Assembly: GCF_028069655.1 (NCBI RefSeq)
Contig: NZ_JAMCOS010000001.1
Span: 4,680,001 to 4,744,000, forward strand
Source of the DNA: Acidovorax sp. NCPPB 4044
Lineage (GTDB): Bacteria; Pseudomonadota; Gammaproteobacteria; Burkholderiales; Burkholderiaceae_C
Length of the DNA: 64,000 nucleotides
Direction: 5' to 3'
Positions 7,535 to 36,869 of the stretch are shown piece after piece (position 1 is the stretch's first letter; each line of letters starts with the position of its first letter). Below the pieces are notes generated by a model. The model was not told the origin of the DNA and ran no database searches. It saw nothing but the letters and a program-made list of their open reading frames with translations. The position numbers and the translations under genes are program-made.

Positions 7535-7581
7535 TAGTGTTGTTTTCTAAAAAGTAAACCGTGCGGTGTAAAATTCGCCGG

Positions 7582-8205: not shown

Positions 8206-8221
8206 CGCCCCTGCGCCGCGT

Positions 8222-9112
8222 TCACAGAGCGCGCCGCGCCGCGGCCATCGCGCTGCGGGCCAGGCGCTCCAGCCGCGGCGGCTGCTGTTGCCAGCTATGC
8301 CAGAACAGGGGGACGTCGGTGGCGGCCTCCGGCAGCACGTCCACCAGTTCGCCGCTTTCGATGGCGCCTTCGATCTGCAGCTCGGGCACCATGCCGTAGC
8401 CCAGGCCGCAGCGCACCGCCGCCACGAAGGGCTCCGACGCGGGCACGTGGTGGCAGGGGTAGGCGCTGGCCTGGAGCCCATGGATGCGGCGCAGCGCCTC
8501 GGCATGCAGCGCATCCTTGCGGTTGAAGACCACGGCGGGGGCGCGCCGCGCGGCGGCGCGCGTGACACCGCGCGCAAACCACTCCTGCACGAAGGCGGGC
8601 GACGCCACGAGCCGGTAGCGCATGGTGCCGAGCAATTCGGCAGCGCAGCCGCGCATGGCATCCGGCTGCGCGGAGATGCAGGCATGGGCCAGGCCCGCCT
8701 CCAGCAGCGCATGCGTGTGCTCCTGGTCGTCCACGATCAATTCCAGTGCGATGCGCTCGCGCTGCAGTGCCGGCGCCAGGGCCGGGAGCAGCCACGTGGC
8801 GAGCGAATCCGCGTTCACGGCCAGCGTGAGCGGGGAGAACGCCGCGCCGTCCCCTCCATCGGTGAGGTCGGCCAGCAGTTCCCGCTCCATGAGCCGCGCA
8901 CGTTGCAGGTGCTGCAGCAACTGCCGCCCTGCCCGCGTGGCGCGGCAGGGGCGGCCGCGCACCAGCAGGGGCTGGCCGAGCCCGCTCTCCAGGGCGCGCA
9001 CGCGCAGCGACACCGCCGACGGCGTGAGGTGCAGCGCCGTGGCGGCCTGCTCGAAACTGCCTGCCTCGGCGACGGCAAGAAAGGCTTCGCATTGCTTGGA
9101 ATCGAGCGGCAT
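8222..9112 (-). CDS. argP: LysR-family regulator of ArgP/LysG type
   Basis: This 296-residue LysR regulator closely follows ArgP, the basic-amino-acid-sensing activator. The helix-turn-helix at residues 5-60 includes FEQAATALHLTPSAVSLRVRALE, and the effector domain contains AVNADSLATWLLPALAP, nearly identical to the segment I recall from E. coli ArgP, followed by VPCHHV-like and PELQIEGAIESGELVDV elements. ArgP activates the divergent LysE/ArgO exporter when arginine, lysine or toxic analogues accumulate, and exactly that gene lies 95 bases away on the opposite strand. Start ATG 9112 gives the normal family length. Confidence 0.9.
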   Translation of the reverse strand: MPLDSKQCEAFLAVAEAGSFEQAATALHLTPSAVSLRVRALESGLGQPLLVRGRPCRATRAGRQLLQHLQRARLMERELLADLTDGGDGAAFSPLTLAVNADSLATWLLPALAPALQRERIALELIVDDQEHTHALLEAGLAHACISAQPDAMRGCAAELLGTMRYRLVASPAFVQEWFARGVTRAAARRAPAVVFNRKDALHAEALRRIHGLQASAYPCHHVPASEPFVAAVRCGLGYGMVPELQIEGAIESGELVDVLPEAATDVPLFWHSWQQQPPRLERLARSAMAAARRAL

Positions 9113-9134
9113 GGCGGCTTCGGGCGTTGAAATT

Positions 9135-9145
9135 GAGAAATTCTC
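9135..9145. promoter_or_regulatory. GAGAA-A-TTCTC dyad in argP/exporter gap
   Basis: A short AT-rich inverted repeat lies between the divergent argP and exporter genes. LysR regulators bind imperfect dyads in this position, so it is a candidate ArgP contact site. The motif is short and could be chance. Confidence 0.3.
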
Positions 9146-9207
9146 GGCCATGCCGATGAATTTCCAAGTTGGGCTCAGATTCTGCCCCCGGTTCCGACAA
9201 TGCCGCC

Positions 9208-9840
9208 ATGTGGTGGACAACTCCCTTCCTGCAGGGCCTGGGCATGAGCGCCGGCCTGATCATCGCCATCGGCGCGCAGAACGTGCACGTGCTGCGCACG
9301 GGGCTGCGGCGGCGCCATGTGGCGCTCACGGTGGGCACCTGCATTGCGGTCGATGCCGTCGCCATCGTCGCGGGCGTGGCCGGCATGGGCCTGCTGATCC
9401 AGGGGCAGCCGCTGCTGCTGGCCGCGGCCCGCTGGGGCGGTGCCGCGTTCCTGGCGTGGTACGGGCTGGCCGCGGCACGGCGGGCCCTGCGCGGCGGCGC
9501 CCGCCTGGCGGGTACGGGCGAAGGGCCGACGCCCGGGGCGCGGCAGGCCCTCATGGCCGTGCTGGCGGTGTCGCTGCTGAATCCCCACATGTACCTCGAC
9601 ACGGTCGTGCTGCTCGGCGCGCTCGGCGGCCAGCGCCCGCCGGCCGAGCGCACCGCCTTCGCCGCCGGGGCGGTGGCCGCATCGACCGGCTGGTTTCTGG
9701 CACTGGGCTTCGGTGCCCGGCTGCTGTCGCCCTGGTTCGCCCGGCCCTCGGCCTGGCGTGCCCTCGATGCCTTCGTGGCCGCGGTGATGCTGCTGCTGGC
9801 CGCGCTGCTCGTCGCCACACCCCTTCCTTCCGCACCATGA
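9208..9840 (+). CDS. LysE/ArgO-family basic amino-acid exporter
   Basis: This 210-residue inner-membrane protein has about six hydrophobic segments and family hallmarks: the N-terminal GLIIAIGAQNVHVLRTGLRRRHV (GAQN motif) and SLLNPHMYLDTVVLLG (the L-NPH-YLD motif of ArgO/LysE). It would export arginine or lysine using the membrane potential. Its divergent partner is the ArgP-type regulator, which fixes the subfamily better than the intact protein alone. The last codon overlaps the start of an ACT-domain gene as ATGA, so exporter and ACT protein are co-translated. Confidence 0.88.
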   Translation: MWWTTPFLQGLGMSAGLIIAIGAQNVHVLRTGLRRRHVALTVGTCIAVDAVAIVAGVAGMGLLIQGQPLLLAAARWGGAAFLAWYGLAAARRALRGGARLAGTGEGPTPGARQALMAVLAVSLLNPHMYLDTVVLLGALGGQRPPAERTAFAAGAVAASTGWFLALGFGARLLSPWFARPSAWRALDAFVAAVMLLLAALLVATPLPSAP

Positions 9841-10241
9841 ACCTCCCACGCATCACCCTCGCCGCGCTGCCTGCGCTCTATGCCGTCGCGCGCCTCGCAC
9901 CCACGGCACCTTTTCCGGCCTGGGCGGACGGCGAGGGATTCGTCTCGCTCACGCGCACGGCCGACGAGCTGTCGGTGGTGTGCAAGGAAGACCGCGTGCC
10001 CGCGGCGGTGCAGTCCGAGCGGGGCTGGAAGGCCTTCCGCTTCGTCGGGCCGTTCGCGTTCGGCGCCACCGGCATCGTGCTGTCGGTGATCCAGCCGCTG
10101 TCGGAGGCGGGCATCGGCATCTTCGTCGTCTCGACCTTCGACGGCGACCACCTGCTGCTGCAGGAGCGCGACGTGCCGCGCGGTCGCGCCCTGCTGGTGG
10201 AGGCCGGGCACACGCTGCTGGATGCGGCGGCGCCGGGCTGA
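9837..10241 (+). CDS. ACT-domain protein coupled to the amino-acid exporter
   Basis: This is a 134-residue protein of the CASTOR-like ACT family. Residues 50-75 contain ELSVVCKEDRVPAAVQSERG and residues 85-125 contain GIVLSVIQPLSEAGIGIFVVSTFDGDHLLLQ, the two half-domains characteristic of these small amino-acid-binding proteins. It has no enzyme domain. Because translation is coupled to the LysE/ArgO exporter, it probably senses the exported amino acid, or binds to limit exporter activity; that role is inference. The start overlaps the exporter stop as ATGA. Confidence 0.75.
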   Translation: MNLPRITLAALPALYAVARLAPTAPFPAWADGEGFVSLTRTADELSVVCKEDRVPAAVQSERGWKAFRFVGPFAFGATGIVLSVIQPLSEAGIGIFVVSTFDGDHLLLQERDVPRGRALLVEAGHTLLDAAAPG

Positions 10242-10313
10242 GCCGCGCGGCAGGCCGGCGTGCCGTACGCTCGCGGCTTCGCATCTCCGCTTTTCGGCCC
10301 TGCCGCTTCTGCC

Positions 10314-10865
10314 ATGCCCCTGTCCCCCTACCTCGACGCCACGCCCACGATGGACGGCGGCGCATACGTCCACCCGTCCGCCCAGATGATCGGCGATGTC
10401 CACCTGGGCCGCGACGCCTCGGTGTGGTGCAACGCCGTGCTGCGCGGCGACGTCCACCGCATCACCGTGGGCGAGGGCTCCAACGTGCAGGACCTCACGA
10501 TGGGCCACGTATCGCACCGCCACCCGGGCAAGCCGGACGGATCGCCGCTCGTGATCGGCAGCCACGTGACCATCGGGCATTCGGCCATCCTGCACGGCTG
10601 TCGCATCGGCGACGAGTGCCTGATCGGCATGGGCAGCATCGTGATGGACGACGCGGTGGTCGGCGACCAGGTGATGCTGGGCGCGGGCAGCCTCGTGCCG
10701 CCGGGCAAGGTGCTGGAGCGCGGCTCGCTCTACATCGGGCGCCCGGCGGTGCGCCAGCGCGCGCTGACCCCGCAGGAGATCGCCTACCTGCGCTATTCGG
10801 CGGAGCACTACATCCGCGTGAAGAACAACTATCTGGCCACGCCGCAACCCTCCCCGGACACCTGA
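10314..10865 (+). CDS. Gamma-class carbonic anhydrase family protein
   Basis: This 183-residue left-handed beta-helix protein is built from hexapeptide repeats. Metal-ligand histidines are visible in MGHVSHRHPGKPDG and in HVTIGHSAILHGCRIGDECLIGMGS, the arrangement of the gamma-carbonic-anhydrase/YrdA group. Members form trimers with zinc or iron at the subunit interface, though many lack measurable anhydrase activity. It has no export signal and is cytosolic. ATG 10314 gives the usual family length; an in-frame GTG at 10260 would add 18 residues. Confidence 0.85.
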   Translation: MPLSPYLDATPTMDGGAYVHPSAQMIGDVHLGRDASVWCNAVLRGDVHRITVGEGSNVQDLTMGHVSHRHPGKPDGSPLVIGSHVTIGHSAILHGCRIGDECLIGMGSIVMDDAVVGDQVMLGAGSLVPPGKVLERGSLYIGRPAVRQRALTPQEIAYLRYSAEHYIRVKNNYLATPQPSPDT

Positions 10866-10885
10866 GAGCCCGACAGTGGCTGCCA

Positions 10886-10891
10886 GATAAT
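10886..10891 (+). promoter_or_regulatory. GATAAT -10 box before diguanylate cyclase
   Basis: GATAATC lies 9 bases before the ATG at 10901. If it is a sigma-70 -10 element, transcription would begin almost at the start codon, giving a leaderless or ultrashort leader. No clear -35 is seen. Confidence 0.4.
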
Positions 10892-10900
10892 CGTCCGCGT

Positions 10901-11935
10901 ATGAACCCACTTCTCGAGCAACTGTCCGCTTCGGTGTCCGCAGACCAGACGGTGGAAGGCCTCACCCGGCCGCTGCTGGAAATGCTGGAAGCCGTGACGG
11001 GGATGGAGTCCACCTACCTCACGTCCGTCGATGAGGAGCGCGGCCTGCAGCAGGTGCTGTACGCCCGCAACTCCCGCAGCATGCAGATTCCCGAGGGCCT
11101 GGCCGTGCCCTGGAACGACACGCTGTGCAAGCGCGCGCTGGACGAAGGCCGCTCTTTCACCGACGACGTTCCGGCCTGCTGGGGCGATTCGCAGGCCGCG
11201 CGGGACCTCGGCATCCGCACCTACGCTAGCATGCCCGTGCGCACGGGCGACGGCGCGCTGTACGGCACCCTGTGCGCGGTCAGCACGCAATCGCGCCCCA
11301 GCACGCCCGAGGCCGAGCGCATCCTGTCGCTGTTCGCTTACCTGATCGGCCAGCAGGTCGAGCGCGAGCGGCTCATCGGCGAGCTGCTCGCCGCCAACGA
11401 GCGGCTGGCCCGCCATGCCGCCACCGACCAGCTCACGGGCCTGCCGAACCGCCGCGCGCTCATGGAGGCGCTCGCGCGCCTGCTCGCGCAGGGCCGGCGC
11501 CGGCAGATGGGGGTGCTCATCGCGTTCATCGACCTGGACGGCTTCAAGTCGGTGAACGATGTCCACGGCCACGATGTGGGCGACCAGTTCCTGGTCGCCA
11601 TCGCGGAGCGCCTGCAGGCGGCGCTGCGCGCGGAGGACATGGCCGCGCGCCTGGGCGGGGACGAGTTCGTCGTGGTCAGCTTCAACGCGCATGCCGGCGG
11701 CGCCGCACGCACCGCGCAGGACACGCTCCAGCAACGCATCGCGCAGGCCACGCAGGGGCGCTTCGAGCTGCCGGGTGCCTCGCTCGATTACGCGGGCGCG
11801 AGCGTGGGCGTCGTCACCGTGCCGCCGGACAGCCGGCACACCGCCGAAGATGCCCTGCGCCTGGCGGACCAGAGCATGTACCAGGTCAAGGTCGCGCGGC
11901 AGCAGCAGGCCCGGCTGGCGCTGCCCCGGCCCTGA
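10901..11935 (+). CDS. GAF-GGDEF diguanylate cyclase
   Basis: This is a 344-residue soluble signalling enzyme. Residues 20-155 form a GAF domain that senses a small ligand or redox state, and residues 172-335 form a GGDEF domain that makes cyclic di-GMP from two GTP. The active site is intact: DQLTGLPNRRAL at 176-187, FIDLDGFKSVND around 209-220, and GGDEF at 252-256. An RxxD product-inhibition site (RAED, 243-246) sits exactly five residues before GGDEF, so feedback inhibition is expected. There is no EAL domain and no membrane segment. The gene stands alone, and the ligand is unknown. Confidence 0.9.
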   Translation: MNPLLEQLSASVSADQTVEGLTRPLLEMLEAVTGMESTYLTSVDEERGLQQVLYARNSRSMQIPEGLAVPWNDTLCKRALDEGRSFTDDVPACWGDSQAARDLGIRTYASMPVRTGDGALYGTLCAVSTQSRPSTPEAERILSLFAYLIGQQVERERLIGELLAANERLARHAATDQLTGLPNRRALMEALARLLAQGRRRQMGVLIAFIDLDGFKSVNDVHGHDVGDQFLVAIAERLQAALRAEDMAARLGGDEFVVVSFNAHAGGAARTAQDTLQQRIAQATQGRFELPGASLDYAGASVGVVTVPPDSRHTAEDALRLADQSMYQVKVARQQQARLALPRP

Positions 11936-11980
11936 CGCCGGGAGCGGCGCTCGCGCCGGGCGGAGGAAGGCGGGTCCGGA

Positions 11981-12970
11981 TCAGTCGGCGGTCATGCGGG
12001 CGCGCGCCGCCACGGCGCGCATGAGCGGCAGCTCACGCTCCAGCAAGGCGTTGGCCTGCGCGGAGGAGCCCACGACGGCTTCCACGCCCTGGTCGGCCAG
12101 GGCCTTGCGCACGCCGGGGTCGGCCATGGTCTCGGCCAGCGCCTTCTCCAGCCTGGCGTGCACCGCGGGCGGCAGGCCGCGCGGCGCGATCAGGGTGCCC
12201 CAGGATTCGAGCACCACCCCAGGAAAGCCCGCTTCGGCGAACGTGGGAACCTGCGGCAGCGTGGCCAGGCGCTGCGGCGACGCCACGGCGATCGCGCGGA
12301 CCTTGCCGGCCTTGATCTGCGGCGCGGCGGTGACCACGGTGTCCATCGCCAGCGGCAATTGCCCGCCGATCAGGTCCGTGAGCATGGGCGCGCTGCCCTT
12401 GTAGGGCACGTGCAGCAGTTGCACGCCCAGGGCCAGCCACGCCATCTCGGCCGCGAAGTGCGACGCGGTGCCGGCGCCGAACGAGGCATAGGGCAGCTGG
12501 CCCGGCGCTTTCTTCGCGGCGGCCTGCAGCTGCGCCAGCGTGCCGAAGGGCGCGTCCTTGCCCGCCAGCAGCACCATGCCCGCGCGGCTCACCATGCCGA
12601 TCTGCTCGAAGCTCCGGACGGAGTCGTAGGGCAGGTCGCGGCGCACGGCCGGGTTCAGCGTGAGCATGGAGCCCGAGCCGATCAGCAGGGTGTAGCCGTC
12701 GGGCGCCGAGCGCGCCACATAGCCGGCCGCCACGGCCGTGCCGCCGCCGGGCCGGTTGTCGATGATGACCGGCTGGCCGAGCTTCTCGCCCAGCTTGGGC
12801 GCGATGGCGCGCCCGATCGTGTCGCTGCTTCCGCCCGGCGGGAACGGCACCACCAGCGTAATGGCCCGGGACGGATAGGCCGGCTGCGCCAGCGCGCCGG
12901 CGGCGCCCACCCATGCCGCGGCCGCCACGGCCGCCGCTTTCCAGGCCCAGGCCCGACGTTGCATCTTCAT
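11981..12970 (-). CDS. Bug-family (TctC-like) periplasmic solute-binding protein
   Basis: This is a 329-residue exported binding protein of the Bug/TctC family. A signal peptide occupies residues 1-29 (KAAAVAAAAWVGAAGALAQ, cleavage after the last A-Q region). The mature protein opens with YPSRAITLVVPFPPGGSSDTIGR, the conserved ligand loop, and continues with NRPGGGTAVAAGYVA and HVPYKGSAPMLTDLIGG. It binds a carboxylate, often a dicarboxylate or aromatic acid. No TctA/TctB membrane genes lie nearby, as is usual for the large orphan Bug sets of Comamonadaceae and Bordetella. The ligand cannot be predicted. Confidence 0.88.
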   Translation of the reverse strand: MKMQRRAWAWKAAAVAAAAWVGAAGALAQPAYPSRAITLVVPFPPGGSSDTIGRAIAPKLGEKLGQPVIIDNRPGGGTAVAAGYVARSAPDGYTLLIGSGSMLTLNPAVRRDLPYDSVRSFEQIGMVSRAGMVLLAGKDAPFGTLAQLQAAAKKAPGQLPYASFGAGTASHFAAEMAWLALGVQLLHVPYKGSAPMLTDLIGGQLPLAMDTVVTAAPQIKAGKVRAIAVASPQRLATLPQVPTFAEAGFPGVVLESWGTLIAPRGLPPAVHARLEKALAETMADPGVRKALADQGVEAVVGSSAQANALLERELPLMRAVAARARMTAD

Positions 12971-13098
12971 GGAAACACTCTCTCTTGCGAAAAAACCAAA
13001 CCGCCGATGGTAGGCAAGGCCACAGATGCATCCGGCATATCGATAGATGCTTGCGCAGGCCAGTACCCCCGGCCCGGCGCGGGCCGCGCCCCCGCCGG

Positions 13099-13104
13099 GA
13101 TAAT
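13099..13104 (+). promoter_or_regulatory. GATAAT -10 box before radical SAM gene
   Basis: GATAATCG lies 26 bases before the ATG at 13131, in a GC-rich gap between divergent genes. It matches similar boxes at 10886 and 22790. A convincing -35 element is not visible. Confidence 0.4.
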
Positions 13105-13130
13105 CGGGGGCCCCACCACCCCACGCTCCC

Positions 13131-15041
13131 ATGCCCGCCTCCGCCTGCCGCGTGCTGGCCGTCATCCCGCCGATGACGCAGCTGAACACGCCCTACCCGT
13201 CCACGGCCTACCTCACCGGCTTCCTGCGCTCGCGCGGCGTCGAGGCGTACCAAGAAGACCTGGCGCTGGCGCTCGTGCTGCGGCTGCTGTCGCCGGAAGG
13301 CCTCGCGCAGGTGGCGGAACGCGTGCAGGCGCTGCCCGAGGCGCGGCGCAGCCCCGCCGTGCGGTCGTTCGCGGCACAGCAGGAGCGGTACCTCGCCACC
13401 GTCGGCCCGGCCATCGCTTTCCTGCAGGGGCGCGACAGCACGCTCGCGCACCGCATCGCGGGCCGGCATTTCCTGCCGGAGGGGCCGCGCTTCGCTTCGC
13501 TGGACGTGTATGTCGACGACGAGGGCGGCGACCCGCTCGGCTGGGCCTTCGGCGCCCTGGGCCTGCAGGACAAGGCCAAGCACCTGGCCACGCTCTACCT
13601 GAACGACCTGGCCGACGTGCTGCGCGATGCGGTGGACGAGCGCTTCGAGTTCGTGCGCTATGCCGAATCGCTGGCCGGCAGCCAGCCGACATTCGACCCC
13701 TTGGCGCGGGCCCTGGCCGCACCGCCCACGCTGGTGGACGAGATGCTGCAAGCGCTCGCGCTGGACGCCGTGGAACGCCACCGGCCCACGGTGGTGCTGC
13801 TGTCGGTGCCGTTTCCCGGGTCGGTCTATGCGGCCTTCCGCATCGCGCAGGCCATCAAGGCGCGGCACCCGCACATCGCCACGGTGCTGGGCGGCGGCTT
13901 CGTGAACACCGAGCTGCGCGAGCTGGCCGAGCCGCGCGTCTTCGACTTCTTCGACTACGTGACGCTGGACGCGGGCGAGCGCCCGTTGCTCGCGCTGCTG
14001 GAGCACCTGCAGGGCCAGCGCGGGCGCCAGCGGCTGGTGCGCACCTTCGTGCGGGCAGACGACGGCGCCGTGCAGTACGTGAACATGATGGAGGCCGACA
14101 TCGCCTTCGCCGAGGTGGGCACGCCCACCTGGGACGGCCTGCCGCTGGACCGGTATCTCTCGCTGCTGGACATGCTCAACCCCATGCACCGGCTCTGGAG
14201 CGACGGGCGCTGGAACAAGCTCACCGTGGCGCACGGCTGCTACTGGAAGAAATGCAGCTTCTGCGACGTGAGCCTCGACTACATCGGCCGCTACGAGGGC
14301 GCCAGCGCCCAGGTGCTGGCCGACCGCATCGAGCAGATCGTGCGCGAGACCGGGCAGACGGGTTTCCACTTCGTGGACGAGGCCGCGCCCCCGAAGGCGC
14401 TCAAGGCCCTGGCCACCGAACTCATCGAGCGCAACGCGGGCATCTCGTGGTGGGGCAACGTGCGCTTCGAGAAAACCTTCACGCCCGAGCTGGCCGAACT
14501 GCTGGCCGATTCGGGCTGCATCGCGATCTCCGGCGGCCTGGAGGTGGCCTCCGACCGGCTGCTGCAGCTCATGAAGAAGGGCGTGTCGGTGGACCAGGTG
14601 GCGCGCGTGACCCGGGCGTTCTCGGACTCCGGCATCCTCGTGCACGCCTACCTGATGTACGGTTTTCCCACGCAGACGGTGCAGGACACGGTGGACGCGC
14701 TCGAATACGTGCGCCAGCTGTTTGCCAACGGCTGCATCCAGAGCGGCTTCTTCCACCGTTTCGCGTGCACCGTGCATTCGCCGGTGGGGCAGAACCCGGC
14801 CGAATACGGCGTGTCGCTCGCGCCGCTGCCGCCGGGGGATTTCGCGAAGAACGACGTGGCCTTCATCGACCCCACGGGCGTGGACCACGACGCGCTGGGC
14901 GGCGCGCTGAAGAAGGCGATTTACAACTACATGCACGGCATCGGGCTGGAAGAGGACGTGCGCACCTGGTTCCCTTTCAAGGTGCCCAAGACCACGGTGG
15001 GCCGCCGCCGCATCGAGCAGGCGCTGGCGGCACGCGCCTGA
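13131..15041 (+). CDS. B12-binding-type radical SAM protein, CX4CX2C cluster motif
   Basis: This is a 636-residue enzyme. Residues 210-290 look like a cobalamin-binding Rossmann domain (TVVLLSVPFPG and IATVLGGGFVNTE). Residues 360-560 form a radical SAM barrel with HGCYWKKCSFCDVSLDYIG. The cluster cysteines are C370, C375 and C378, a CX4CX2C spacing instead of the canonical CX3CX2C. Some B12-dependent radical SAM families share this GCYW..C.FC form. A further segment, GIGLEEDVRTWFPFKVPK, closes the protein. The gene stands alone between a binding protein and a chemoreceptor, so no substrate can be named. Methyl transfer to an unactivated carbon is the typical reaction of the class. Confidence 0.8.
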   Translation: MPASACRVLAVIPPMTQLNTPYPSTAYLTGFLRSRGVEAYQEDLALALVLRLLSPEGLAQVAERVQALPEARRSPAVRSFAAQQERYLATVGPAIAFLQGRDSTLAHRIAGRHFLPEGPRFASLDVYVDDEGGDPLGWAFGALGLQDKAKHLATLYLNDLADVLRDAVDERFEFVRYAESLAGSQPTFDPLARALAAPPTLVDEMLQALALDAVERHRPTVVLLSVPFPGSVYAAFRIAQAIKARHPHIATVLGGGFVNTELRELAEPRVFDFFDYVTLDAGERPLLALLEHLQGQRGRQRLVRTFVRADDGAVQYVNMMEADIAFAEVGTPTWDGLPLDRYLSLLDMLNPMHRLWSDGRWNKLTVAHGCYWKKCSFCDVSLDYIGRYEGASAQVLADRIEQIVRETGQTGFHFVDEAAPPKALKALATELIERNAGISWWGNVRFEKTFTPELAELLADSGCIAISGGLEVASDRLLQLMKKGVSVDQVARVTRAFSDSGILVHAYLMYGFPTQTVQDTVDALEYVRQLFANGCIQSGFFHRFACTVHSPVGQNPAEYGVSLAPLPPGDFAKNDVAFIDPTGVDHDALGGALKKAIYNYMHGIGLEEDVRTWFPFKVPKTTVGRRRIEQALAARA

Positions 15042-15359
15042 GCGGACAGCCGGCGGAGGGCCCCGCCCGCCCGGCATATGCTATTTATTTAATAGCAAAC
15101 TATTGAATGAATACGGCGGCATGGAGGGGTTTTTACTTTTATCCCGTGCATCGGGGGCACCGGCACCCTCCATCCCCTGCCGCCGCACGCCTGCTCGCGG
15201 TTGTGGCCTGCGCGCACCACGCACCACCGGCGGCGGCCCCTCGGGCGACAGGGCTGCCGCATTTCGTCACATACTGGCCGCGGTCCCCGCGATCCACACG
15301 GAATGCCGTGTGTCCGCCCCCCTCCTTCCCTGCTTCCTGCTCCCGCTCCGAGGTTCCCC
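15042..15359. other. 318-base gap between radical SAM and chemoreceptor genes
   Basis: Apart from the AT-rich repeat at 15079-15110 I see no coding signal, hairpin terminator or convincing promoter here. The remainder is ordinary GC-rich spacer upstream of the chemoreceptor. Confidence 0.5.
15079..15110 (+). repeat. AT-rich palindromic repeat, copy 1
   Basis: The unit begins with the hairpin TGCTATT-TATTT-AATAGCA (15079-15097) and continues with TATTGAATGA. A second copy at 41049-41080 on the other strand matches 26 of 32 bases across the whole unit. It stands out as AT-rich in a very GC-rich context. It follows the stop of the radical SAM gene. Confidence 0.6.
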
Positions 15360-17192
15360 ATGCAATTCCTCCGCCGCCTTTCCCTGGGTTCCCGGCTGGC
15401 ACTGGGCTTCGGCCTGCTGCTGCTGCTCCTGGCCCTCATCACCGGCATCGGCATCGCGCGCATGTCCACGCTGGACCACACGTCGCAGCAGATCACCAAC
15501 GAGATCTACGGCAAGGTCAACGCCAGCCAGCGCATGGGCTACCTGGTGCTGGACATCGCGCGCGCCGCCCGCAACATCATCATCCTGGAGGACCAGGCCC
15601 AGATGGCCTCCAACCAGACCGCCATCGACAAGAACACGGCCGAGTTCGCCACCACGCTGGCCCGCCTGCGCCAACTGGAGACTTCCGCGCAGACGCGCAG
15701 CCTGATCGACGCCACCGAGGCCGTCGGCAAGGACTACCTCGCCTTCACCGCCGACGTGACCGCGCTCGGCTTCCGCAACGCCAACGTGGAAGGCCAGCAG
15801 CTGCTGTTCGGGCCGCGCTACAAGACGCAGGGCGACCTGCTGGGCAACCTGAACAAGCTGATCGCGCAGTACGAACAGGAGATGCAGCAGGCCAGCGCGC
15901 AGGCGCACGCCACCTTCGTGCAGTCGGCCACGCTGCTGGGCCTGACGGCGCTGGTGGCCGTGCTGGCCGGCATCGGCGGCGCGCTGCTCATCACGCGCTC
16001 CATCACCGGGCCCATGGCCCAGGCGGTGGAAGTGGCGCAGGCGGTGGCCGAGGGCGACCTGACGCGCACGGTGCAGGACACCGGCCGCGACGAGGCTGCC
16101 CGGCTGCTGCAATCCATCCAGGCCATGAACGGCAACCTGACGCGCGTGGTCCACCAGATCCGGCAGGCGAGCGATTCCATCGCCACCGGCTCCTCGCAGA
16201 TCGCCAGCGGCAATACCGACCTTTCGCAGCGCACCGAGTCGCAGGCCTCCAGCCTGCAGCAGACGGCCGCGTCGATGGAGCAGATGAGCGCCACGATCCG
16301 CCAGAACGCCGACACCGCGCGCACGGCCAGCCAGCTCGCCGCCACCGCCAGCCAGGCCGCCACCCGCGGCGGCGACGTGATGGGCCAGGTGGTCTCGACG
16401 ATGCAGGACATCTCGGGCAGCTCCAGCAAGATCGCCGACATCATCGGCGTGATCGACGGCATCGCCTTCCAGACCAACATCCTCGCGCTCAATGCCGCGG
16501 TCGAGGCTGCCCGCGCGGGCGAGCAGGGCCGCGGCTTTGCCGTGGTGGCCAGCGAAGTGCGCGCGCTGGCGGGGCGCAGCGCCGAGGCCGCCAAGGAGAT
16601 CAAGAACCTCATCGGCCAGAGCGTGGAGAAGGTCGGCGCGGGCACGCGGCTCGTGGACGAGGCGGGCACCACCATGGCCGACATCGTGCAGCAGGTGCAG
16701 CGCGTGAGCGACCTGATCGCCGAGATCGACGCGGCCACGCGCGAGCAGAGCGAGGGCATCGGCCAGGTGAATTCGGCCGTGTCGCAACTCGACCAGGCCA
16801 CCCAGCAGAACGCGGCCCTGGTGGAGGAAGCCGCCGCGGCGGCCGGCAGCCTGCAGCAGCAGGCCGTGCGGCTCACCGAAACCGTGGGCGTATTCCGCCT
16901 CTCGGGCATGGCCGAACGCACCACGGCACCGTTCTCGCCGCCGCCTCCCGCACCGCCCTCCACACCTGCCTCTGCACCGGCCGCGGCGCGCGCACCGGCC
17001 CGGGCGCCCGTGCACGCAGTGGGCGCACGCCCGCCTGCGGCTGCCGCCCGGCTGGCAGCGGCACCGGCCCCGCGCCCCGCGCCGCCCCGGCCAGCAGCCG
17101 CCGCACCGGCAACCAGGCCGCCCGCACTGCCTGCAGCGCCCAAAACCAGCACGGCCCACAGCAACGCCGACGACGACTGGACCGCCTTCTGA
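15360..17192 (+). CDS. Methyl-accepting chemotaxis protein with CheR-tether pentapeptide
   Basis: This 610-residue chemoreceptor has a first membrane segment at about residues 10-31, a periplasmic four-helix-bundle sensor to about residue 185, a second membrane segment near 186-208 and a HAMP linker (RSITGPMAQAVEVAQAVAEGDLT). Its long cytoplasmic coiled coil carries the signalling tip GIAFQTNILALNAAVEAARAG. After about residue 515 comes an alanine/proline-rich linker of roughly 85 residues, and the protein ends in DDDWTAF. The last five residues fit the xWxxF pentapeptide (NWETF in E. coli Tar) that tethers CheR. The ligand is unknown and no other che genes lie nearby. Confidence 0.92.
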   Translation: MQFLRRLSLGSRLALGFGLLLLLLALITGIGIARMSTLDHTSQQITNEIYGKVNASQRMGYLVLDIARAARNIIILEDQAQMASNQTAIDKNTAEFATTLARLRQLETSAQTRSLIDATEAVGKDYLAFTADVTALGFRNANVEGQQLLFGPRYKTQGDLLGNLNKLIAQYEQEMQQASAQAHATFVQSATLLGLTALVAVLAGIGGALLITRSITGPMAQAVEVAQAVAEGDLTRTVQDTGRDEAARLLQSIQAMNGNLTRVVHQIRQASDSIATGSSQIASGNTDLSQRTESQASSLQQTAASMEQMSATIRQNADTARTASQLAATASQAATRGGDVMGQVVSTMQDISGSSSKIADIIGVIDGIAFQTNILALNAAVEAARAGEQGRGFAVVASEVRALAGRSAEAAKEIKNLIGQSVEKVGAGTRLVDEAGTTMADIVQQVQRVSDLIAEIDAATREQSEGIGQVNSAVSQLDQATQQNAALVEEAAAAAGSLQQQAVRLTETVGVFRLSGMAERTTAPFSPPPPAPPSTPASAPAAARAPARAPVHAVGARPPAAAARLAAAPAPRPAPPRPAAAAPATRPPALPAAPKTSTAHSNADDDWTAF

Positions 17193-23278: not shown

Positions 23279-23917
23279 TCAATCGCCCCGGCGCTCGATT
23301 CCGGCCACCGAACGCGCGCCGGCGGTCCACACATCCAGGCGGAAATCCGCGTCCGTGGCCTGCAGCGCGCGGCGCAGTGCCAGCTGCTGCGCCAGCCGCT
23401 CGTGCACGGCATCGCCCGCAAGCGCACAGCCGGCGATGGGCGGCCGCCAGTGGCAGGCCGCAACCACGCCGTCCGGCGCCAGCGCGCCACGCACACGCTG
23501 CGCCAGGCGGTCGATGGCCTCCGGCGCGAGGTAATAAACGAATTCGCTGAGCACGATGAGGTCGAACGTGCCCTCCGGCCACTCGTCGGGGACCCACATG
23601 CGGGCCAACGACACGTGCGGATGCTGGGGCCTGAGCCGGCGGGCAGCGATGGCCAGTGCCCGGTCGGCGCCGTCCGTGGCGAGCAGGCTGTCGCAGCGGG
23701 CCGCCAGTTCCGCCGTCAGCAGGCCCGTCGCACAGCCAGGCTCGAAGGCGCGGGCATAGCGCTCGTGCGGCAGGGATGCCAGCAGCAGCCTTCGCTTGCG
23801 CGCCTCGTACCAGCTGCCGTCGAAACGCCACGGGTCATCGCTCTGCTCATAGAGCGCTTCGAACTGCGGCGCGGCGATCCCGCACGGCCCGCGAACGTCG
23901 GCGGGGCGCAGCGTCAT
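23279..23917 (-). CDS. NodS-like class I SAM-dependent methyltransferase
   Basis: This 212-residue methyltransferase has the SAM-binding motif RAFEPGCATGLLTAELAARCD (residues 58-78, E-x-G-x-x-x-G), the acidic ribose contact LLATDGADRALAIA and the post-II strand FDLIVLSEFVYYLAPEA. The N-terminus, ALYEQSDDPWRFDGSWYEARKR, has the form of the NodS family. NodS N-methylates the deacetylated end sugar of rhizobial Nod factors. Here the gene is the last of an operon and begins inside the PIG-L deacetylase stop as ATGA. A deacetylase followed by an N-methyltransferase is chemically sensible: the free amine made first is the acceptor. The real substrate is unknown. Confidence 0.82.
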   Translation of the reverse strand: MTLRPADVRGPCGIAAPQFEALYEQSDDPWRFDGSWYEARKRRLLLASLPHERYARAFEPGCATGLLTAELAARCDSLLATDGADRALAIAARRLRPQHPHVSLARMWVPDEWPEGTFDLIVLSEFVYYLAPEAIDRLAQRVRGALAPDGVVAACHWRPPIAGCALAGDAVHERLAQQLALRRALQATDADFRLDVWTAGARSVAGIERRGD

Positions 23918-24687
23918 GGCCCCGGCGCGAAGAAATACTCGAGCGGCCAGCGCGACCGCTCCAGGATGGCATCGTCCAGCACCGGCGGCAGGCCGGAGGC
24001 CCGTTCCGCGAGCTGCGAACGGTGGCACGCGATGGCCGCCTGCTTGGCGGTCGCCCCGGCATCGCCCCCGGACTGGAACGCCGCCAGGCGGGTCCACGGA
24101 ATCCGGGAGTGCTCCGGCTCGGCCCAATGCCACATCCAGACCGGAGCCTCCCACAGGGCCGCGCCCACTGCGCGGGCCGCACCGGCCGCCGCGTGGCCGC
24201 AGGCCTCGTGGTCCGGATGTCCATCGAACCGCCAGGTGGTCACCACCACATCGCCGGGGCGCAGCAGGGTGCGAAAGGTCTGTTCGAGGCCATGCCGGCA
24301 TGGCGCCAACCCCCCGTCCGGCAACCCCAGGGACAGCAGTTCGGCAGCACCTGCGCCCAGCACGCGCAGGCCTTCCGAGCGCTCCTGCCGGCGCCGCGCG
24401 GCGGTGGCCACGGCCGACCCGCCGGGGTCTCCACGGTGGCTGGCCTCGCCGTCGGTCACGCCGACGACCAGCATGCTGCCGCCTTGCAGGGCATGTGCGC
24501 GCAGCAGCATGCCGCAGGCCAGGACCTCGTCATCGGGGTGCGGTGCGATCACCACCAGCCGCTGCCGAGCGCCGACCACCGCGGAGACAGGCCGGCACAC
24601 GGGCCCGAGCGCGGCCAGCCAGGACTGCCATGCCTGCGGCGAGCGGCGTGGCCGGTCGATGTGCCGGGTGCCGGACGGCGCGTCCAT
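23914..24687 (-). CDS. PIG-L family (LmbE-like) N-acetylglucosamine-type deacetylase
   Basis: This 257-residue zinc-dependent deacetylase has the metal site PHPDDE at residues 49-54 and the second signature WRFDGHPDHEACGHAA near 155-170, both intact. PIG-L enzymes remove the acetyl group from GlcNAc-linked substrates such as GlcNAc-PI, GlcNAc-inositol (MshB) or GlcNAc-malate (BshB). The start overlaps the acyl-CoA dehydrogenase stop as TGATG and the stop overlaps the methyltransferase start as ATGA. In some genomes deacetylase and methyltransferase occur fused, as I recall, which supports a shared pathway. No signal peptide is present. Confidence 0.87.
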   Translation of the reverse strand: MDAPSGTRHIDRPRRSPQAWQSWLAALGPVCRPVSAVVGARQRLVVIAPHPDDEVLACGMLLRAHALQGGSMLVVGVTDGEASHRGDPGGSAVATAARRRQERSEGLRVLGAGAAELLSLGLPDGGLAPCRHGLEQTFRTLLRPGDVVVTTWRFDGHPDHEACGHAAAGAARAVGAALWEAPVWMWHWAEPEHSRIPWTRLAAFQSGGDAGATAKQAAIACHRSQLAERASGLPPVLDDAILERSRWPLEYFFAPGP

Positions 24688-25751
24688 CAGATCGTCCACG
24701 GCGGTTCCTCCAGTACTGCGAGGCATTCGCCCAGGGCGGCATCGTCGCGGGCCGCGTGGCTCTGCCGTATGAAGACCGGCAGGTCCGCCGCCATGCGCGC
24801 AAAGGCGGCGTCGCGGCAGAACGGCGTCGCGCCCAGGGCGCGGCCCACTTCCTCCAGCACGGTCTGCGCACAGGCTTCGGCCGCCTGGCGCACACGCAAG
24901 GCCACCCACCGTGCATCCGCCTGGGAATGGGTGTCGATCCATTGGGCGGCATCGCGCAGCAGGCCGGCCGTGCCGGCCAGGCAAAGGTCCACGCGGCCCA
25001 GTGCCGCCAGGCGAAAGGGCGTGCGTTGTTCCGCGGGCGCCCTGAGCACCGCGGCATGCAGCGCCCGGCCCAATGCGGTGGCGCCGCCGTGCCAGCAGGC
25101 GGCAACACCGGCGCCGCCCTGCCAGAAGCCCGGCCGGTGCAGGTAATCGCCAGGCCCGCCCACGGCAGCGGCGGGCACGCCATCGAACGACACGGTGGCG
25201 CTTGCGCTGGCGGCCATGCCCACCGCCTGCCAGGCCTCGCAATCCACCCGCATTCCTGGATGCCCCATCTCCACCGCCACGAGCTGCGGCACGTCGGCGC
25301 CGGAATGCCATGCGGTCAACAGGCCGTGGGAGGCATGCTCCGCGCCGGAACACCACGCCTTCTGGCCATGCAGGCGCAGCCCTCCGTCCGCGCCCGGACG
25401 GATCGCCACGCGCTGGCCAGGCGCTTCCGCAGCCCACGTGCCCCAGACCGATGTGCGGGTGCTGCCGGCAATGCCGGCGGGGGCGCGCAATTCGCACAGG
25501 ATGGCCAGCGCGTCCGTGTGGCCCTCGTAGAGCTTTGCAAGGGAAAGATCGTGCGCGGCCACCTCGGCCAGGGCCCGCCATCGCTCTGCCGTGTGGCCCA
25601 GGGCCGGCAACGGAAGCTCGCCGCAGCCCAAGTCGATCAAGCGCCGCAGGCGCGCTGCCGGCGCTGCGGCCCCCACATCTTCCTGGAGGACGGCGCGCAA
25701 TCCGGCCAGGGACACCGCACCGCGGCTGCCGTCGCGCGCGTTCATGGACAT
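24687..25751 (-). CDS. Acyl-CoA dehydrogenase-like flavoprotein of glycan operon
   Basis: This 354-residue protein of acyl-CoA dehydrogenase type has the middle-domain strand GGLRLHGQKAWCSGAEHASHGLL (near 125-145) and a C-terminal helical bundle ending in DLPVFIRQSHAARDDAALGECL. The usual T-E-P-x-x-G-S-D signature is weak (AAEAPGQRV), and I cannot place a catalytic glutamate with certainty. Two starts are possible: 25751, which overlaps the glycosyltransferase by ten bases, and the ATG at 25745, which gives a four-base ATGA overlap like its neighbours. It may oxidise an acyl chain or an amine-bearing intermediate. Its place between a glycosyltransferase and a deacetylase is unusual for beta-oxidation. 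Confidence 0.75.
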   Translation of the reverse strand: MSMNARDGSRGAVSLAGLRAVLQEDVGAAAPAARLRRLIDLGCGELPLPALGHTAERWRALAEVAAHDLSLAKLYEGHTDALAILCELRAPAGIAGSTRTSVWGTWAAEAPGQRVAIRPGADGGLRLHGQKAWCSGAEHASHGLLTAWHSGADVPQLVAVEMGHPGMRVDCEAWQAVGMAASASATVSFDGVPAAAVGGPGDYLHRPGFWQGGAGVAACWHGGATALGRALHAAVLRAPAEQRTPFRLAALGRVDLCLAGTAGLLRDAAQWIDTHSQADARWVALRVRQAAEACAQTVLEEVGRALGATPFCRDAAFARMAADLPVFIRQSHAARDDAALGECLAVLEEPPWTI

Positions 25752-26425
25752 CCTTCGGCCACCGACGCCAGCCCAGGCACGGCCAAGCCGGCGAGATGCG
25801 CTCCGAATCCGCCCGGCGCACGGTACTGGCGGCGCGCGCTGGTGACCACGCGCGGAACGTTGCTCCAGGCGATGCGCGCGCCCAAGGCCTCCAGCGACTC
25901 CACGAGCGCCACGTCCTCACCCGTTCGCAGTTCGCGGAAGCCGCCTGCCCGCACGTAGGCCCCGGCATCCACGCCCAGGTTGGCGCCATGGATGTGGCGG
26001 TGGCCCGGCCGGTCGAGGTATGCCGCGTGGTAGCACTGCTGCAGCGATACGCTGTAGTCCTCCCAATGGCGCACTTCCACGGTGCCGCAGACGGCATCGC
26101 TGACCTGCCCGAGCTGGGCCGCGATCCAGTCCGGCGCCACGGTGCTGTCTGCATCGGTGAAGCCGAGCCAGCGGGCACCCGCCTGCAGTGCAGCCTGTGC
26201 ACCCGCTGCGCGTGCCGCGCCCACGTTGCACCGATCCAGCGAGACGGTTTTCACGCGGTGCCGCTGCGCGATCGCTGCCGACCGGTCGGTGCATGCGTCG
26301 AGCGCCACCACGATGGTCACGCCTTCGCCGCCCAGCGCCGGATGCCTCGCAGCCTCCTGCAGCGATTGCAGGCAGGCTTCCAGGCGTTCTTCTTCGTCGT
26401 GGGCCGGCACCACCACGCCGATCAT
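25742..26425 (-). CDS. Family 2 glycosyltransferase
   Basis: This 227-residue GT-A glycosyltransferase begins with MIGVVVPAHDEEERLEACLQSL, the nucleotide-binding start of family 2. The metal-binding acidic motif is GFTDADSTVAPDW (DAD, near residue 86), and a later acidic motif, ELRTGEDVALVESL, supplies the ED pair. No membrane segment is seen. It is the first full enzyme of a minus-strand operon with acyl-CoA dehydrogenase, PIG-L deacetylase and NodS-like methyltransferase. It may add GlcNAc that the next enzymes modify; donor and acceptor are not predictable. The ribosome-binding site GGAGGG lies 8 bases before ATG. Confidence 0.85.
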   Translation of the reverse strand: MIGVVVPAHDEEERLEACLQSLQEAARHPALGGEGVTIVVALDACTDRSAAIAQRHRVKTVSLDRCNVGAARAAGAQAALQAGARWLGFTDADSTVAPDWIAAQLGQVSDAVCGTVEVRHWEDYSVSLQQCYHAAYLDRPGHRHIHGANLGVDAGAYVRAGGFRELRTGEDVALVESLEALGARIAWSNVPRVVTSARRQYRAPGGFGAHLAGLAVPGLASVAEGCP

Positions 26426-26517
26426 CGGAGATGCCCTCCGCAACGCGCGGCAGATGCCCCATTGCCTGCCACCTCGGCAGGACGCTTCTTCTCCCGACTC
26501 CGATCTTTCCGCGCCAT
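26422..26517 (-). CDS. Candidate 31-residue basic leader ORF upstream of glycosyltransferase
   Basis: A short open frame of 31 codons starts at 26517 with a good ribosome-binding site (AAAGGG, 7 bases before ATG) and ends in an ATGA overlap with the glycosyltransferase start. The product begins MARKDRSREKKRPAEV and is strongly basic, ending near a single cysteine (ARCGGHLR). It has no recognisable domain. The coupling matches the rest of the operon, which supports a leader or small structural peptide, but the length is short enough to occur by chance. Its ribosome-binding site lies within an inverted repeat at 26526-26542. Confidence 0.4.
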   Translation of the reverse strand: MARKDRSREKKRPAEVAGNGASAARCGGHLR

Positions 26518-26525
26518 GTTGTTTC

Positions 26526-26542
26526 CCTTTCGTTACGAAAGG
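26526..26542 (-). promoter_or_regulatory. Perfect inverted repeat CCTTTCGT-A-ACGAAAGG over leader RBS
   Basis: The 17-base dyad lies just upstream of the 31-codon leader ORF, and its right arm contributes the AAAGG of that ORF's ribosome-binding site. As DNA it is an operator candidate. As RNA it could pair as CCTTTC/GAAAGG with a five-base loop and hide the ribosome-binding site. Either would set expression of the operon at 23.3-26.5 kb. Confidence 0.5.
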
Positions 26543-26635
26543 AAAGCTACTGCGCAGGATGCAGCAGGGCCGTAGGAGAGCGGCCTGCCCACACATGCGA
26601 CTCAGCGCCTAGAAGGCGCGAAATCGTGACAGCGG

Positions 26636-35603: not shown

Positions 35604-36869
35604 TCATGCCGCCGCCACGCGCTGCGCGCGCGCCCTGGCCGCCACGCCGATGCCGACCACGCCCGCCGAGGCCACGCCCAGCACCAGGGCCGCGGCCGAT
35701 CCGTAGAAGATGCCGGAGGTCATGCCCGCGTCCAGCATGGCGCCGAAGACCGGGGCGGCCACGCTGAAGCCGAGGTCCAGGCCCGAGTACACGGTGCCGT
35801 ACACGCGGCCCGTGGCGCCGGGGGGCGCAGCGCGCTTGATGAGCATGTCGCGCGAGGGGCCCGCTAGCCCGGTGCCGACGCCGGCCAGTGCCACGAACAC
35901 CATGGCGGCCACGCCCGGCAGCACGCCGGTGCCGGCGATCACCAGCAGCGCGGCCGTGGCCAGCAGGCACACGGTGATGGTGCGCTCCAGGCGCGCCACG
36001 CGGCCCGCCAGGAAGCCGCCCACGACCATGCCCGCGGCGCCGCACAGCATGTAGCCCGTGACCACCATGGAGGTTTGCGACAGCGGCAGGCCGTACATCT
36101 TCTGCAGCGTGGGGCTGGCGAAGCTCTGGATCACGCTCAGCGAGCAGGTGGTCCAGAAGAAGAACGAGAAGCACAGCCACACCGACGGCAGCCTGAGGAA
36201 GGCCATCGGGTGCTCGGGCGCCAGCGCAGCCGTGGCGGCCGCCGCCTTGCCGGCGGGCGCCGCACCCGCCGCCTGCCGGTCGTCGAGCGCGTCGCGGTTC
36301 CAGACCATGACGGCCAGCACGACCAGCGCCAGCAGGCCGCCGCAGAGGCAGGCCGTGCGCCACGAGCCCGTGGCCGCGGTGATGCCGGCCATGAACACCG
36401 GCGCGGTGGCCCAACCCAGGTTGCCCGAGATGCCATGCACCGAGAAGCCGTGGCCCAGCCGCTGCGCCGACACGCGCTTGTTGAGGATGGTGAAATCCAC
36501 CGGGTGGAAGGGCGCATTGCCCAGGCCCGCGAGCGCCGCAGCCGCCATGAGCCCGGCATAGCCGGTGGCCGTGCTGGCCACCAGACCCGCCGCCACGAAG
36601 CTCGACAGCGCAAAGAACATCACGGGCCGCGCACCCACGCGGTCCACGATGAAGCCCGACAGCGCCTGCCCCACACCCGAGATGACGAAGAACACCGACA
36701 CGAGCAGCCCCAGCTCCGAATAGCTGTAGCCGAACTCCGCGATGAGGAACGGGAACAGCGGCGGCAGCAGCAGGTGGAAGAAATGCGAGGAGCCGTGCGC
36801 CAGGCCGATGAGGCCGATGGTGCGGGCGTCCTGCCGCAGCGTCGCGGTAGGGGCGTTGATCGAGGTCAT
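35604..36869 (-). CDS. MFS transporter, fosmidomycin-resistance (Fsr)-like
   Basis: This 421-residue major facilitator has twelve membrane segments. The first half shows GLAHGSSHFFHLLLPPLFPFLIAEFG near the N-terminus, typical of the Fsr subfamily, and the motif-A-like loop GFIVDRVGARPVMFF. The second half begins after a charged loop near residue 215 and includes GVGTGLAGPSRDMLIKRAAPPGATG. Members extrude antibiotics or metabolites. It is divergent from an AraC regulator, 64 bases away, arranged like the E. coli nimR-nimT pair, so that regulator likely controls it. The substrate is unknown. Confidence 0.85.
   Translation of the reverse strand: MTSINAPTATLRQDARTIGLIGLAHGSSHFFHLLLPPLFPFLIAEFGYSYSELGLLVSVFFVISGVGQALSGFIVDRVGARPVMFFALSSFVAAGLVASTATGYAGLMAAAALAGLGNAPFHPVDFTILNKRVSAQRLGHGFSVHGISGNLGWATAPVFMAGITAATGSWRTACLCGGLLALVVLAVMVWNRDALDDRQAAGAAPAGKAAAATAALAPEHPMAFLRLPSVWLCFSFFFWTTCSLSVIQSFASPTLQKMYGLPLSQTSMVVTGYMLCGAAGMVVGGFLAGRVARLERTITVCLLATAALLVIAGTGVLPGVAAMVFVALAGVGTGLAGPSRDMLIKRAAPPGATGRVYGTVYSGLDLGFSVAAPVFGAMLDAGMTSGIFYGSAAALVLGVASAGVVGIGVAARARAQRVAAA

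Follow-up and report, generated by a model that had tools for sequence, protein, structure and literature searches.

What might four overlapping genes of Acidovorax sp. NCPPB 4044, coding for enzymes of four different classes, make together? They occupy a small part of the window, the 64,000-nucleotide stretch of DNA analysed here (contig NZ_JAMCOS010000001.1, positions 4,680,001 to 4,744,000). A leader open reading frame and genes for a family-2 glycosyltransferase (GT2), an acyl-CoA-dehydrogenase-fold (ACAD-fold) flavoenzyme, a PIG-L deacetylase and a NodS-like methyltransferase follow one another on the minus strand, overlapping by ATGA or TGATG. A first-pass annotation had described such an operon, and the sequence bears out its coordinates and junctions:

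26422..26517, minus strand: leader open reading frame, 31 codons (31 amino acids, MARKDRS...), its stop overlapping the GT2 start
25742..26425, minus strand: GT2, a single soluble GT-A domain, 227 amino acids, assigned by Pfam and invariant motifs
24687..25745, minus strand: ACAD-fold flavoenzyme, probably monooxygenase-like, 352 amino acids, with an alternative ATG at 25751
23914..24687, minus strand: PIG-L (LmbE) de-N-acetylase, 257 amino acids, assigned by Pfam and invariant residues
23279..23917, minus strand: NodS-like SAM-dependent methyltransferase, 212 amino acids, assigned by Pfam PF05401 and solved-chain matches
26512..26575, minus strand: predicted hairpins 5' of the leader start, MFE -22.7, z -2.9

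Operon junctions and leader

The overlap is ATGA at the leader/GT2, GT2/ACAD and PIG-L/methyltransferase junctions and TGATG at ACAD/PIG-L. Gene overlaps of these types are common in operons, so the junctions are no anomaly; it is the conservation of the gene set, not its junctions, that stands above chance. The enzymes had been pictured as "fused" into a relay. The overlapping coupling is real, but the genes are separate; PIG-L and methyltransferase share one open frame at locus L213, a single case among 626 open frames that gave a match.

The position of the leader and its coupling are kept in congeners with the same gene order, but its amino-acid sequence is not. The second of the hairpins (CTTTCCTTTCG...CGAAAGGGAAA) is predicted to be able to cover the leader ribosome-binding region. 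Folding yielded similar but weaker hairpins at L003-L008 and no hairpin exceeding shuffled sequences at L009, L010 and L013, and the leader region had no Rfam match at E values up to 1. A sigma-70 promoter scan found no promoter, and 2 terminator-like sites turned up where shuffled sequences averaged 1.6. The sequence TYTYCTACRR is present upstream of the operon, as it is in congeners, and occurs more often in the window than expected (2 occurrences versus 0.1). It was rejected as a shared promoter motif or regulon on its genome-wide count (61 matches versus 134 for the reversed control), as was a longer form (67 versus 84 for the control; no regulon).

Enzyme families and their relatives

GT2 matches PF00535 at 60.9 bits (cut-off 23.3), and D43, D47, D91-A92-D93 (the DxD motif) and E170-D171 (the ED motif) are invariant among 36 sequences. 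For PIG-L the match is to PF02585 at 81.7 bits (cut-off 28.2), with H50, D52, D53, E54, D155, H157, D159 and H160 invariant among 36 sequences and metal-site motifs present. The methyltransferase matches PF05401 (NodS) at 45.7 bits (cut-off 24). Its nearest solved chain is 4isc_A (157.6 bits); NodS 3ofj scores 52.3 bits, and 105.4 bits when searched with the methyltransferase family profile. Two narrower assignments of GT2 were rejected on score, as the arsenosugar transferase equivalog (TIGR04283, 55.7 bits versus 182 required) and as that of mycofactocin (54.4 versus 280).

A like set is found in rhizobial nodC-nodB-nodS, which also join a GT2 transferase, a deacetylase and a NodS-family N-methyltransferase. 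The Nod factor deacetylase acts on a terminal GlcNAc, and NodB has the CE4 fold. The cassette differs in having PIG-L in place of NodB, a GT2 that is a short soluble domain, an added ACAD-fold flavoenzyme and no NodA, and its methyltransferase lies below the NodS equivalog cut-off (66.8 versus 300 bits). No nod genes were recognised beside the window operon.

The flavoenzyme has the full ACAD fold, and in the window protein the only Pfam match is to PF02770, at 30.5 bits, under the cut-off of 33.3; alphaproteobacterial and Deinococcus relatives pass the Acyl-CoA_dh Pfam cut-offs. A profile search ranks DszC first for the family (66.6 bits), and Foldseek ranks 1-8 are all DszC, TdsC and MsuC. 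The DszC/TdsC/MsuC/SfnB enzymes thus resemble it in fold and as best profile and Foldseek matches, and a CSGA motif is common to it and DszC. Identity to DszC, TdsC and MsuC is 17-21%, the four-gene set has no flavin reductase, and the protein is far under all NCBIfam cut-offs (SfnB 29.8 versus 430.9 bits, DszC 20 versus 850). The nitrososynthases and N-oxygenases KijD3, DnmZ and ORF36 are also ACAD-fold enzymes, likened here by fold and profile; they give profile matches of 36-46 bits, Foldseek ranks of 14-16 and below, and mixed structural ranks. These enzymes oxidise amino sugars, and their substrates are dTDP-amino sugars.

The first-pass annotation had called this second enzyme a dehydrogenase, an assignment that does not hold up well. 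At position 329, the presumed site of the C-terminal catalytic Glu (located manually by extending from the RD motif), Glu never occurs among 43 sequences, which carry S in 32, P in 7, C in 2 and T and A in one each. Because this Glu is missing, monooxygenases are the best profile relatives, and the ACAD carries a GH1-like (glycoside-hydrolase-like) domain in all 3 Deinococcus loci inspected, the protein is probably not a usual dehydrogenase; its profile fits DszC-type monooxygenases best, and it is probably monooxygenase-like. That it might be a genuine dehydrogenase, with an aminoglycolipid or acyl carrier supplying the acyl chain to be desaturated, seems quite improbable. The fold would suit such a role, true acyl-CoA dehydrogenases tie with monooxygenases in structural Z, and the nearest solved chain of the alphaproteobacterial relative L240 is an acyl-CoA dehydrogenase (4u83, 55.1 bits). 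The alternative catalytic site on helix G (position 203, placed by hand against a consensus and so, like position 329, presumptive) is Glu in 7 and Asp in 5 of the 43 sequences; it is variable, however (R12, S5, N4, H3, A3, Q2, T1 and G1 in the remainder), and is His in the window. Position 329 and the first rank of DszC also count against desaturation, and the four-gene set has no acyltransferase or carrier.

Conservation and genomic context

That the four-gene cassette is a conserved unit is shown by its recurrence. ACAD and methyltransferase occur together in 108 of 112 ACAD loci, and all four genes in 86 of the 112. Of 20 plasmid regions, 17 hold the complete set, Deinococcus, Kitasatospora and Nostoc among them; the 20 were hand-picked for diversity, not at random, from 32 and 45 matching records, and their genes were called at a lenient 20-bit limit. 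The set is conserved across four phyla in several gene orders, and the Acidovorax genes represent the Comamonadaceae form of a widespread and probably horizontally mobile cassette. Each of the four families is common by itself and the overlaps are ordinary, but in the face of these counts it is scarcely credible that unrelated enzymes came together by chance or hitch-hiking. The proposal of one functional unit, which would have suffered had the genes rarely occurred together, is therefore upheld. The accompanying idea of an enzyme chain fares less evenly: it is plausible that GT2, deacetylase and N-methyltransferase act in a Nod-like order, but a strict relay is weakened because PIG-L goes undetected in some genomes that retain the remainder of the set (at E up to 1e-10, 7 of 11 genomes having the ACAD-methyltransferase pair without adjacent PIG-L lack a family-profile match genome-wide).

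Genes for trehalose/alpha-glucan metabolism, Ku/LigD and catalase are recurrent neighbours of the cassette, a stress-gene context that is well supported. Those of the trehalose/alpha-glucan group lie near it in 39 of 112 loci, of which 32 are Pseudomonas; Ku/LigD do so in 12 and an Lhr/ATP-ligase operon in 3; 60 of the 112 have none of the stress neighbours tested. Since OtsA, OtsB and TreS were outside the queries behind these counts, links such as that at G022 are missed. The gene order in Comamonas endophytica is otsA-ACAD-PIGL-MT-GT2-otsB, and an Acinetobacter locus has catalase, the cassette, an MFS gene and otsA/otsB. Among the 18 annotated plasmid regions (L241 is unannotated and L251 has a resistance-gene prediction only), 9 contain at least one gene of the trehalose/alpha-glucan, catalase or Ku/LigD groups; a trehalose link occurs in 5 and catalase in 6, the latter a count without control. 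This context was not mentioned in the first-pass annotation.

The linked loci are mostly Pseudomonas and share descent. Outside Pseudomonas and its family, 8 of 63 loci are linked (L034, L061, L077, L078, L105, L205, L227 and L228), against 1 or 2 of 63 expected by chance from an approximate manual calculation (some 16 kb in 5 Mb for each locus, and a few target loci); the eight include two Acidovorax and two Achromobacter and so are not independent, and L034 and L105 are linked to the Lhr/ATP-ligase operon only. The count omits the four loci of family f47 (L219, L223, L233 and L234), presumed Pseudomonadaceae, of which three are linked. The window locus is not linked to trehalose genes, and its genome has TreZ, OtsA and Ku at distant sites. 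Outside the genus, TreZ or OtsA is present in 5/5 genomes with the cassette versus 26/78 without it (p 0.006), and Ku in 4/5 versus 13/78 (p 0.006); the congener G009 lacks the cassette yet has TreZ, OtsA and Ku.

PSPTO_3131-3134 of Pseudomonas syringae DC3000 are presumably the four cassette genes, and Freeman et al. in 2010 reportedly treated PSPTO_3125-3134 as one trehalose locus. PP_3256-3259 of P. putida KT2440 presumably lie between Ku and LigD; a literature search for these PP tags found no paper. The DC3000 trehalose locus resembles the cassette context, in which the ACAD gene directly follows GlgX in 32 of 80 loci. That locus, glgA to glgX (PSPTO_3125-3130), is named in PMC8982409, from whose main text the words acyl-CoA and deacetylase are absent.

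Candidate products and roles

The first-pass annotation knew of no described product, and no published description of the cassette, its product or its pathway was found in the literature searched, most subscription journals lying outside it; the product is apparently undescribed, and a description may exist. We infer the substrates, step order, type of oxidation, product and role as follows. GT2 would take an N-acetylhexosamine from a nucleotide sugar and attach it to an acceptor that may be trehalose or a maltodextrin; PIG-L is predicted to take the acetyl group off the transferred sugar; the NodS-like enzyme would place a methyl on the freed amine; and the ACAD-fold flavoenzyme would, most likely through flavin monooxygenase chemistry at or next to the nitrogen, oxidise the product. 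We tentatively favour, at a little under an even chance, a small (N-methylated, oxidised) amino-sugar glycoside made for long-term survival of drying, osmotic stress or stationary phase. Trehalose as a proven acceptor was set aside, as co-location does not identify the acceptor.

The cassette might instead add an N-methylated amino sugar as decoration to a glycan or glycolipid of the cell surface (exopolysaccharide, LPS or a glycolipid head group), and envelope protection would then account for the stress link. An extra glycosyltransferase and UDP-galactopyranose mutase at two Deinococcus loci, four annotated glycosyltransferases at each of the Novosphingobium and Sphingobium loci, and endonuclease/exonuclease/phosphatase-family and phospholipase-D-like genes near some Pseudomonas loci would fit. 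Decoration is nevertheless somewhat unlikely: the window-form GT2 is one soluble domain of 227 amino acids, the four-gene set includes no exporter or polymerase, and many loci have no further glycan genes among their typed neighbours (the annotation being non-exhaustive). The redox cofactor suggested in the first-pass annotation drew no positive support, and a thiol or redox compound akin to mycothiol or bacillithiol is very improbable. Those pathways share the logic of a glycosyltransferase followed by a PIG-L deacetylase, and BshB1 is the best NCBIfam match of the cassette PIG-L; but its 49 bits are far below the 182.5-bit cut-off, the transferase is GT2 and not GT4, and methylation and oxidation are left unexplained. 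Membership of either pathway was rejected on the scores and on the missing cysteine ligase, the four-gene set alone being searched.

A more specific form of the favoured glycoside reading, speculative and on the whole unlikely, is an undescribed anhydrobiosis metabolite in at least four phyla: trehalose or maltodextrin bearing an amino sugar that is deacetylated, N-methylated and, by an ACAD-fold oxygenase, N-oxidised. This charged sugar would act together with trehalose, Ku/LigD and catalase to stabilise cells that are dry or resting. Bacteria are known to survive drying with the help of trehalose, NHEJ and catalase. The size of the four-gene set, the non-pathogenic nature of hosts and the existence of single-operon forms make the product accessible to direct test. 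If true, the "acyl-CoA dehydrogenase" annotation in many genomes would need correcting, and if a distinct small molecule does travel with trehalose, NHEJ and catalase in Proteobacteria, Deinococcus, actinomycetes and cyanobacteria, desiccation biology would have missed a metabolite.

Organization and translation of the operon

The first-pass annotation had described an operon of overlapping frames. Five reading frames, each overlapping its neighbour, are indeed read from the minus strand between 26517 and 23279, and ATGA or TGATG occurs at all four junctions.

Reading frames and their junctions
26517-26422, minus strand: leader; ATGA at the junction with GT2
26425-25742, minus strand: family-2 glycosyltransferase (GT2); ATGA at the junction with ACAD
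25745-24687, minus strand: flavoenzyme of acyl-CoA dehydrogenase (ACAD) fold; TGATG at the junction with PIG-L
24687-23914, minus strand: PIG-L deacetylase; ATGA at the junction with the methyltransferase
23917-23279, minus strand: NodS-like methyltransferase

These overlaps suggest coupled translation, and they are ordinary among operons rather than a special device. Since GT2 begins with ATGA, a stop overlapping its start comes free; it is the open frame with a start that needs explaining. Such a frame, with an in-frame ATG 18-45 codons upstream of GT2 and a TGA overlapping the GT2 start, is found in 10 distinct sequences of the genus (the window, L003-L010 and L013), in all of which a purine-rich stretch precedes the leader ATG. 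L012 has a comparable ATG without that stretch, and a leader of this type is absent upstream in four loci outside the genus (L011, L034, L035 and L036). The leader peptides are dissimilar among genus sequences, so it seems to be the coupling, not the peptide, that is conserved. A strong hairpin (26512-26575, minus strand; MFE -22.7, z -2.9) lies over the purine-rich stretch 5' of the window leader start. A similar but weaker pyrimidine/purine hairpin, which beats shuffled sequences by 0.6 to 1.9 standard deviations, is present in L003-L008, and folding against shuffles gave no outstanding hairpin at the leader in L009, L010 and L013; a translational switch is possible. The motif TYTYCTACRR also occurs upstream of the operon, with a second copy in the window at 35701-35710 (minus strand) and no genome-wide enrichment.

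Conservation, spread and gene order

A search of 100 genomes (the window's own included) with the ACAD protein found matches in 23. Inside the genus, 15 of 17 genomes have a strong match (95 bits or more); among the 83 others, 5 do. One of the 15 is partial (G006, locus L021; query residues 10-198), with no PIG-L found beside it, and is read as a decayed or cut cassette. PIG-L and methyltransferase adjoin ACAD in every one of the loci L002-L020 (19, including that of the window). In a phylum-wide sample ACAD is present in 31 of 398 genomes (E up to 1e-25), and 30 short loci from that sample carry the methyltransferase in every case and PIG-L in 25. A scan of a collection of genomes, described as covering 84,980 species, yielded at least 541 relatives, the best 80 of which were joined with 32 longer regions into a set of 112 loci. 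The methyltransferase is found in 108 of these, PIG-L in 99, GT2 in 95 and all four genes in 86; the methyltransferase is missing from four loci, namely L037, whose contig is 3.4 kb long, L061, L073 and L077.

ACAD also appears in plasmid records, 32 with the window query and 45 with an alphaproteobacterial one. Among 20 regions chosen for diversity, with 20 bits as a lenient threshold for calling genes, 17 have all four genes and 19 have ACAD, PIG-L and methyltransferase; they cover Pseudomonadota, Deinococcota, Actinomycetota (Kitasatospora, L239) and Cyanobacteriota (Nostoc, L241). The proposed co-occurrence of the four families is thus borne out, with ACAD and methyltransferase as the near-invariant core. 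PIG-L is not adjacent to that pair in 11 genomes; seven of these have no profile match anywhere (E up to 1e-10; completeness not given for six), and the other four have one elsewhere in the genome. Where PIG-L is missing, either a substitute deacetylase acts, or the donor sugar supplies the amine, or a different product is made.

Most of the genus shares the GT2-first order of the window, and the order ACAD, PIG-L, methyltransferase, GT2 prevails among the other loci. Two genomes of the genus, G003 and G007, carry this second order with ACADs that share 46% and 48% identity with that of the window. G016 has an ACAD of like kind (48% identity), with GT2 not seen within its short locus. These cases suggest that the unit was replaced or transferred. 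Nineteen Acinetobacter plasmid records, three of chromosome size, contain the ACAD gene (two of the nineteen were inspected). Many fluorescent pseudomonads have another PIG-L gene after GT2, as at L042 and further Pseudomonas loci.

Proposed chemistry of the four enzymes

Catalytic motifs of both PIG-L and GT2 are kept across alignments of 36 sequences per family, and the closest relatives of PIG-L are TT1542 (71.8 bits) and diacetylchitobiose deacetylases (71.1 bits). The methyltransferase profile scores 4isc_A highest (254.6 bits), then NodS (105.4), with phosphoethanolamine methyltransferases well below (59.8). NodS N-methylates deacetylated chitooligosaccharide, so that, by analogy, an amine would be the natural reading for the methyltransferase substrate. 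A genome of the same phylum (locus L213) has PIG-L and methyltransferase within one open frame, a partnership expected of deacetylation and N-methylation.

The ACAD model shows a full ACAD fold with confidence (pLDDT 94.4), and by structural Z the monooxygenases are tied with true dehydrogenases. Foldseek places the flavin monooxygenases DszC, TdsC and MsuC at ranks 1-8 and the amino-sugar N-oxygenases KijD3 and DnmZ at 14 and 16; the family profile gives DszC 66.6 bits versus 49.4 for the best named acyl-CoA dehydrogenase (1rx0), and KHFCSGA of DszC aligns with the family's KxWCSGA motif. The catalytic Glu of acyl-CoA dehydrogenases, placed with the dehydrogenase consensus by extending the alignment with 4u83, a solved acyl-CoA dehydrogenase, by hand from a shared RD motif, would fall at position 329; none of 43 sequences has Glu there (S, P, C, T or A). 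The helix-G alternative, position 203, is variable (Glu in 7 of 43, Asp in 5, His in the window). Invariant residues are E74, H76, W104, K129, R327 and Q328. An oxygenase is more likely than a dehydrogenase. The earlier reaction chain, GT2 to PIG-L to NodS-like enzyme, stands as a fair working model, except for its dehydrogenase step.

Three Deinococcus ACADs are longer.

Deinococcus ACADs with an extra N-terminal domain
L238, 6543-8882: ~420 extra residues
L245, 4579-6927: ~420 extra residues
L246, 4609-6972: ~420 extra residues

At all three loci the extra domain is related to a neighbouring gene annotated as GH1 (identity 24-25%, E values from 5e-16 to 1.5e-17); Pfam gave no match in two stretches tested. 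The presence of this GH1-related domain favours a glycoside over acyl-CoA as substrate.

Neighbouring trehalose and DNA-repair genes

Beside 45 Pseudomonas loci, trehalose/alpha-glucan genes occur at 32, Ku/LigD at 9 and one or the other at 41. GlgX is directly 5' of ACAD in 32 of the best 80 of at least 541 relatives. In an NCBIfam check of one protein per type (two for Ku), GlgX, TreY, MalQ, GlgB, LigD and Ku exceed curated cut-offs, and a TreZ piece cut by its contig scored 103.9 bits. The same trehalose genes are listed for P. syringae DC3000 in PMC8982409.

Genes linked to the cassette at other loci
L078 (Achromobacter), 4431-16165: Ku, LigD, ATP-ligase/Lhr-helicase/phosphoesterase operon
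L105 (Achromobacter): ATP-ligase/Lhr-type helicase/phosphoesterase operon
L205: Ku/LigD
L244 (Bradyrhizobium): Ku/LigD
L227, L228 (window's family): TreZ, MalQ, TreY
G022: OtsA-like gene (403 bits, below family cut-off), 2.5 kb from ACAD on the same contig
L237 (Acinetobacter): catalase, otsA/otsB
L249 (Legionella lytica): otsB, GH65 gene
L250 (Paracoccus): catalase, treZ
L255 (Cupriavidus): maltosyltransferase, catalase
L256 (Comamonas endophytica): one run of otsA, the four genes and otsB; otsA/ACAD overlap ATGA

None of the tested stress neighbours (a query set without OtsA, OtsB and TreS) is found in 60 of the 112 loci, and 9 of 18 annotated plasmid regions have no trehalose, catalase or Ku/LigD gene. 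The window genome has TreZ, OtsA and Ku, but far from the cassette. Outside the genus, genomes with the cassette compare with those without as 4/5 versus 11/78 for TreZ (p 0.003), 4/5 versus 18/78 for OtsA (p 0.016; E at most 1e-60, with some scores under the family cut-off), 5/5 versus 26/78 for either (p 0.006) and 4/5 versus 13/78 for Ku (p 0.006), in small numbers uncorrected for relatedness and genome size. Two genomes of the genus have no ACAD match: G009, with TreZ, OtsA and Ku, and G010, with OtsA only.

A literature search, with most subscription journals outside its reach, found no published description of the cassette or pathway for it. The four-enzyme cassette is real, conserved and widely spread, and it is often carried beside desiccation and DNA-repair genes.
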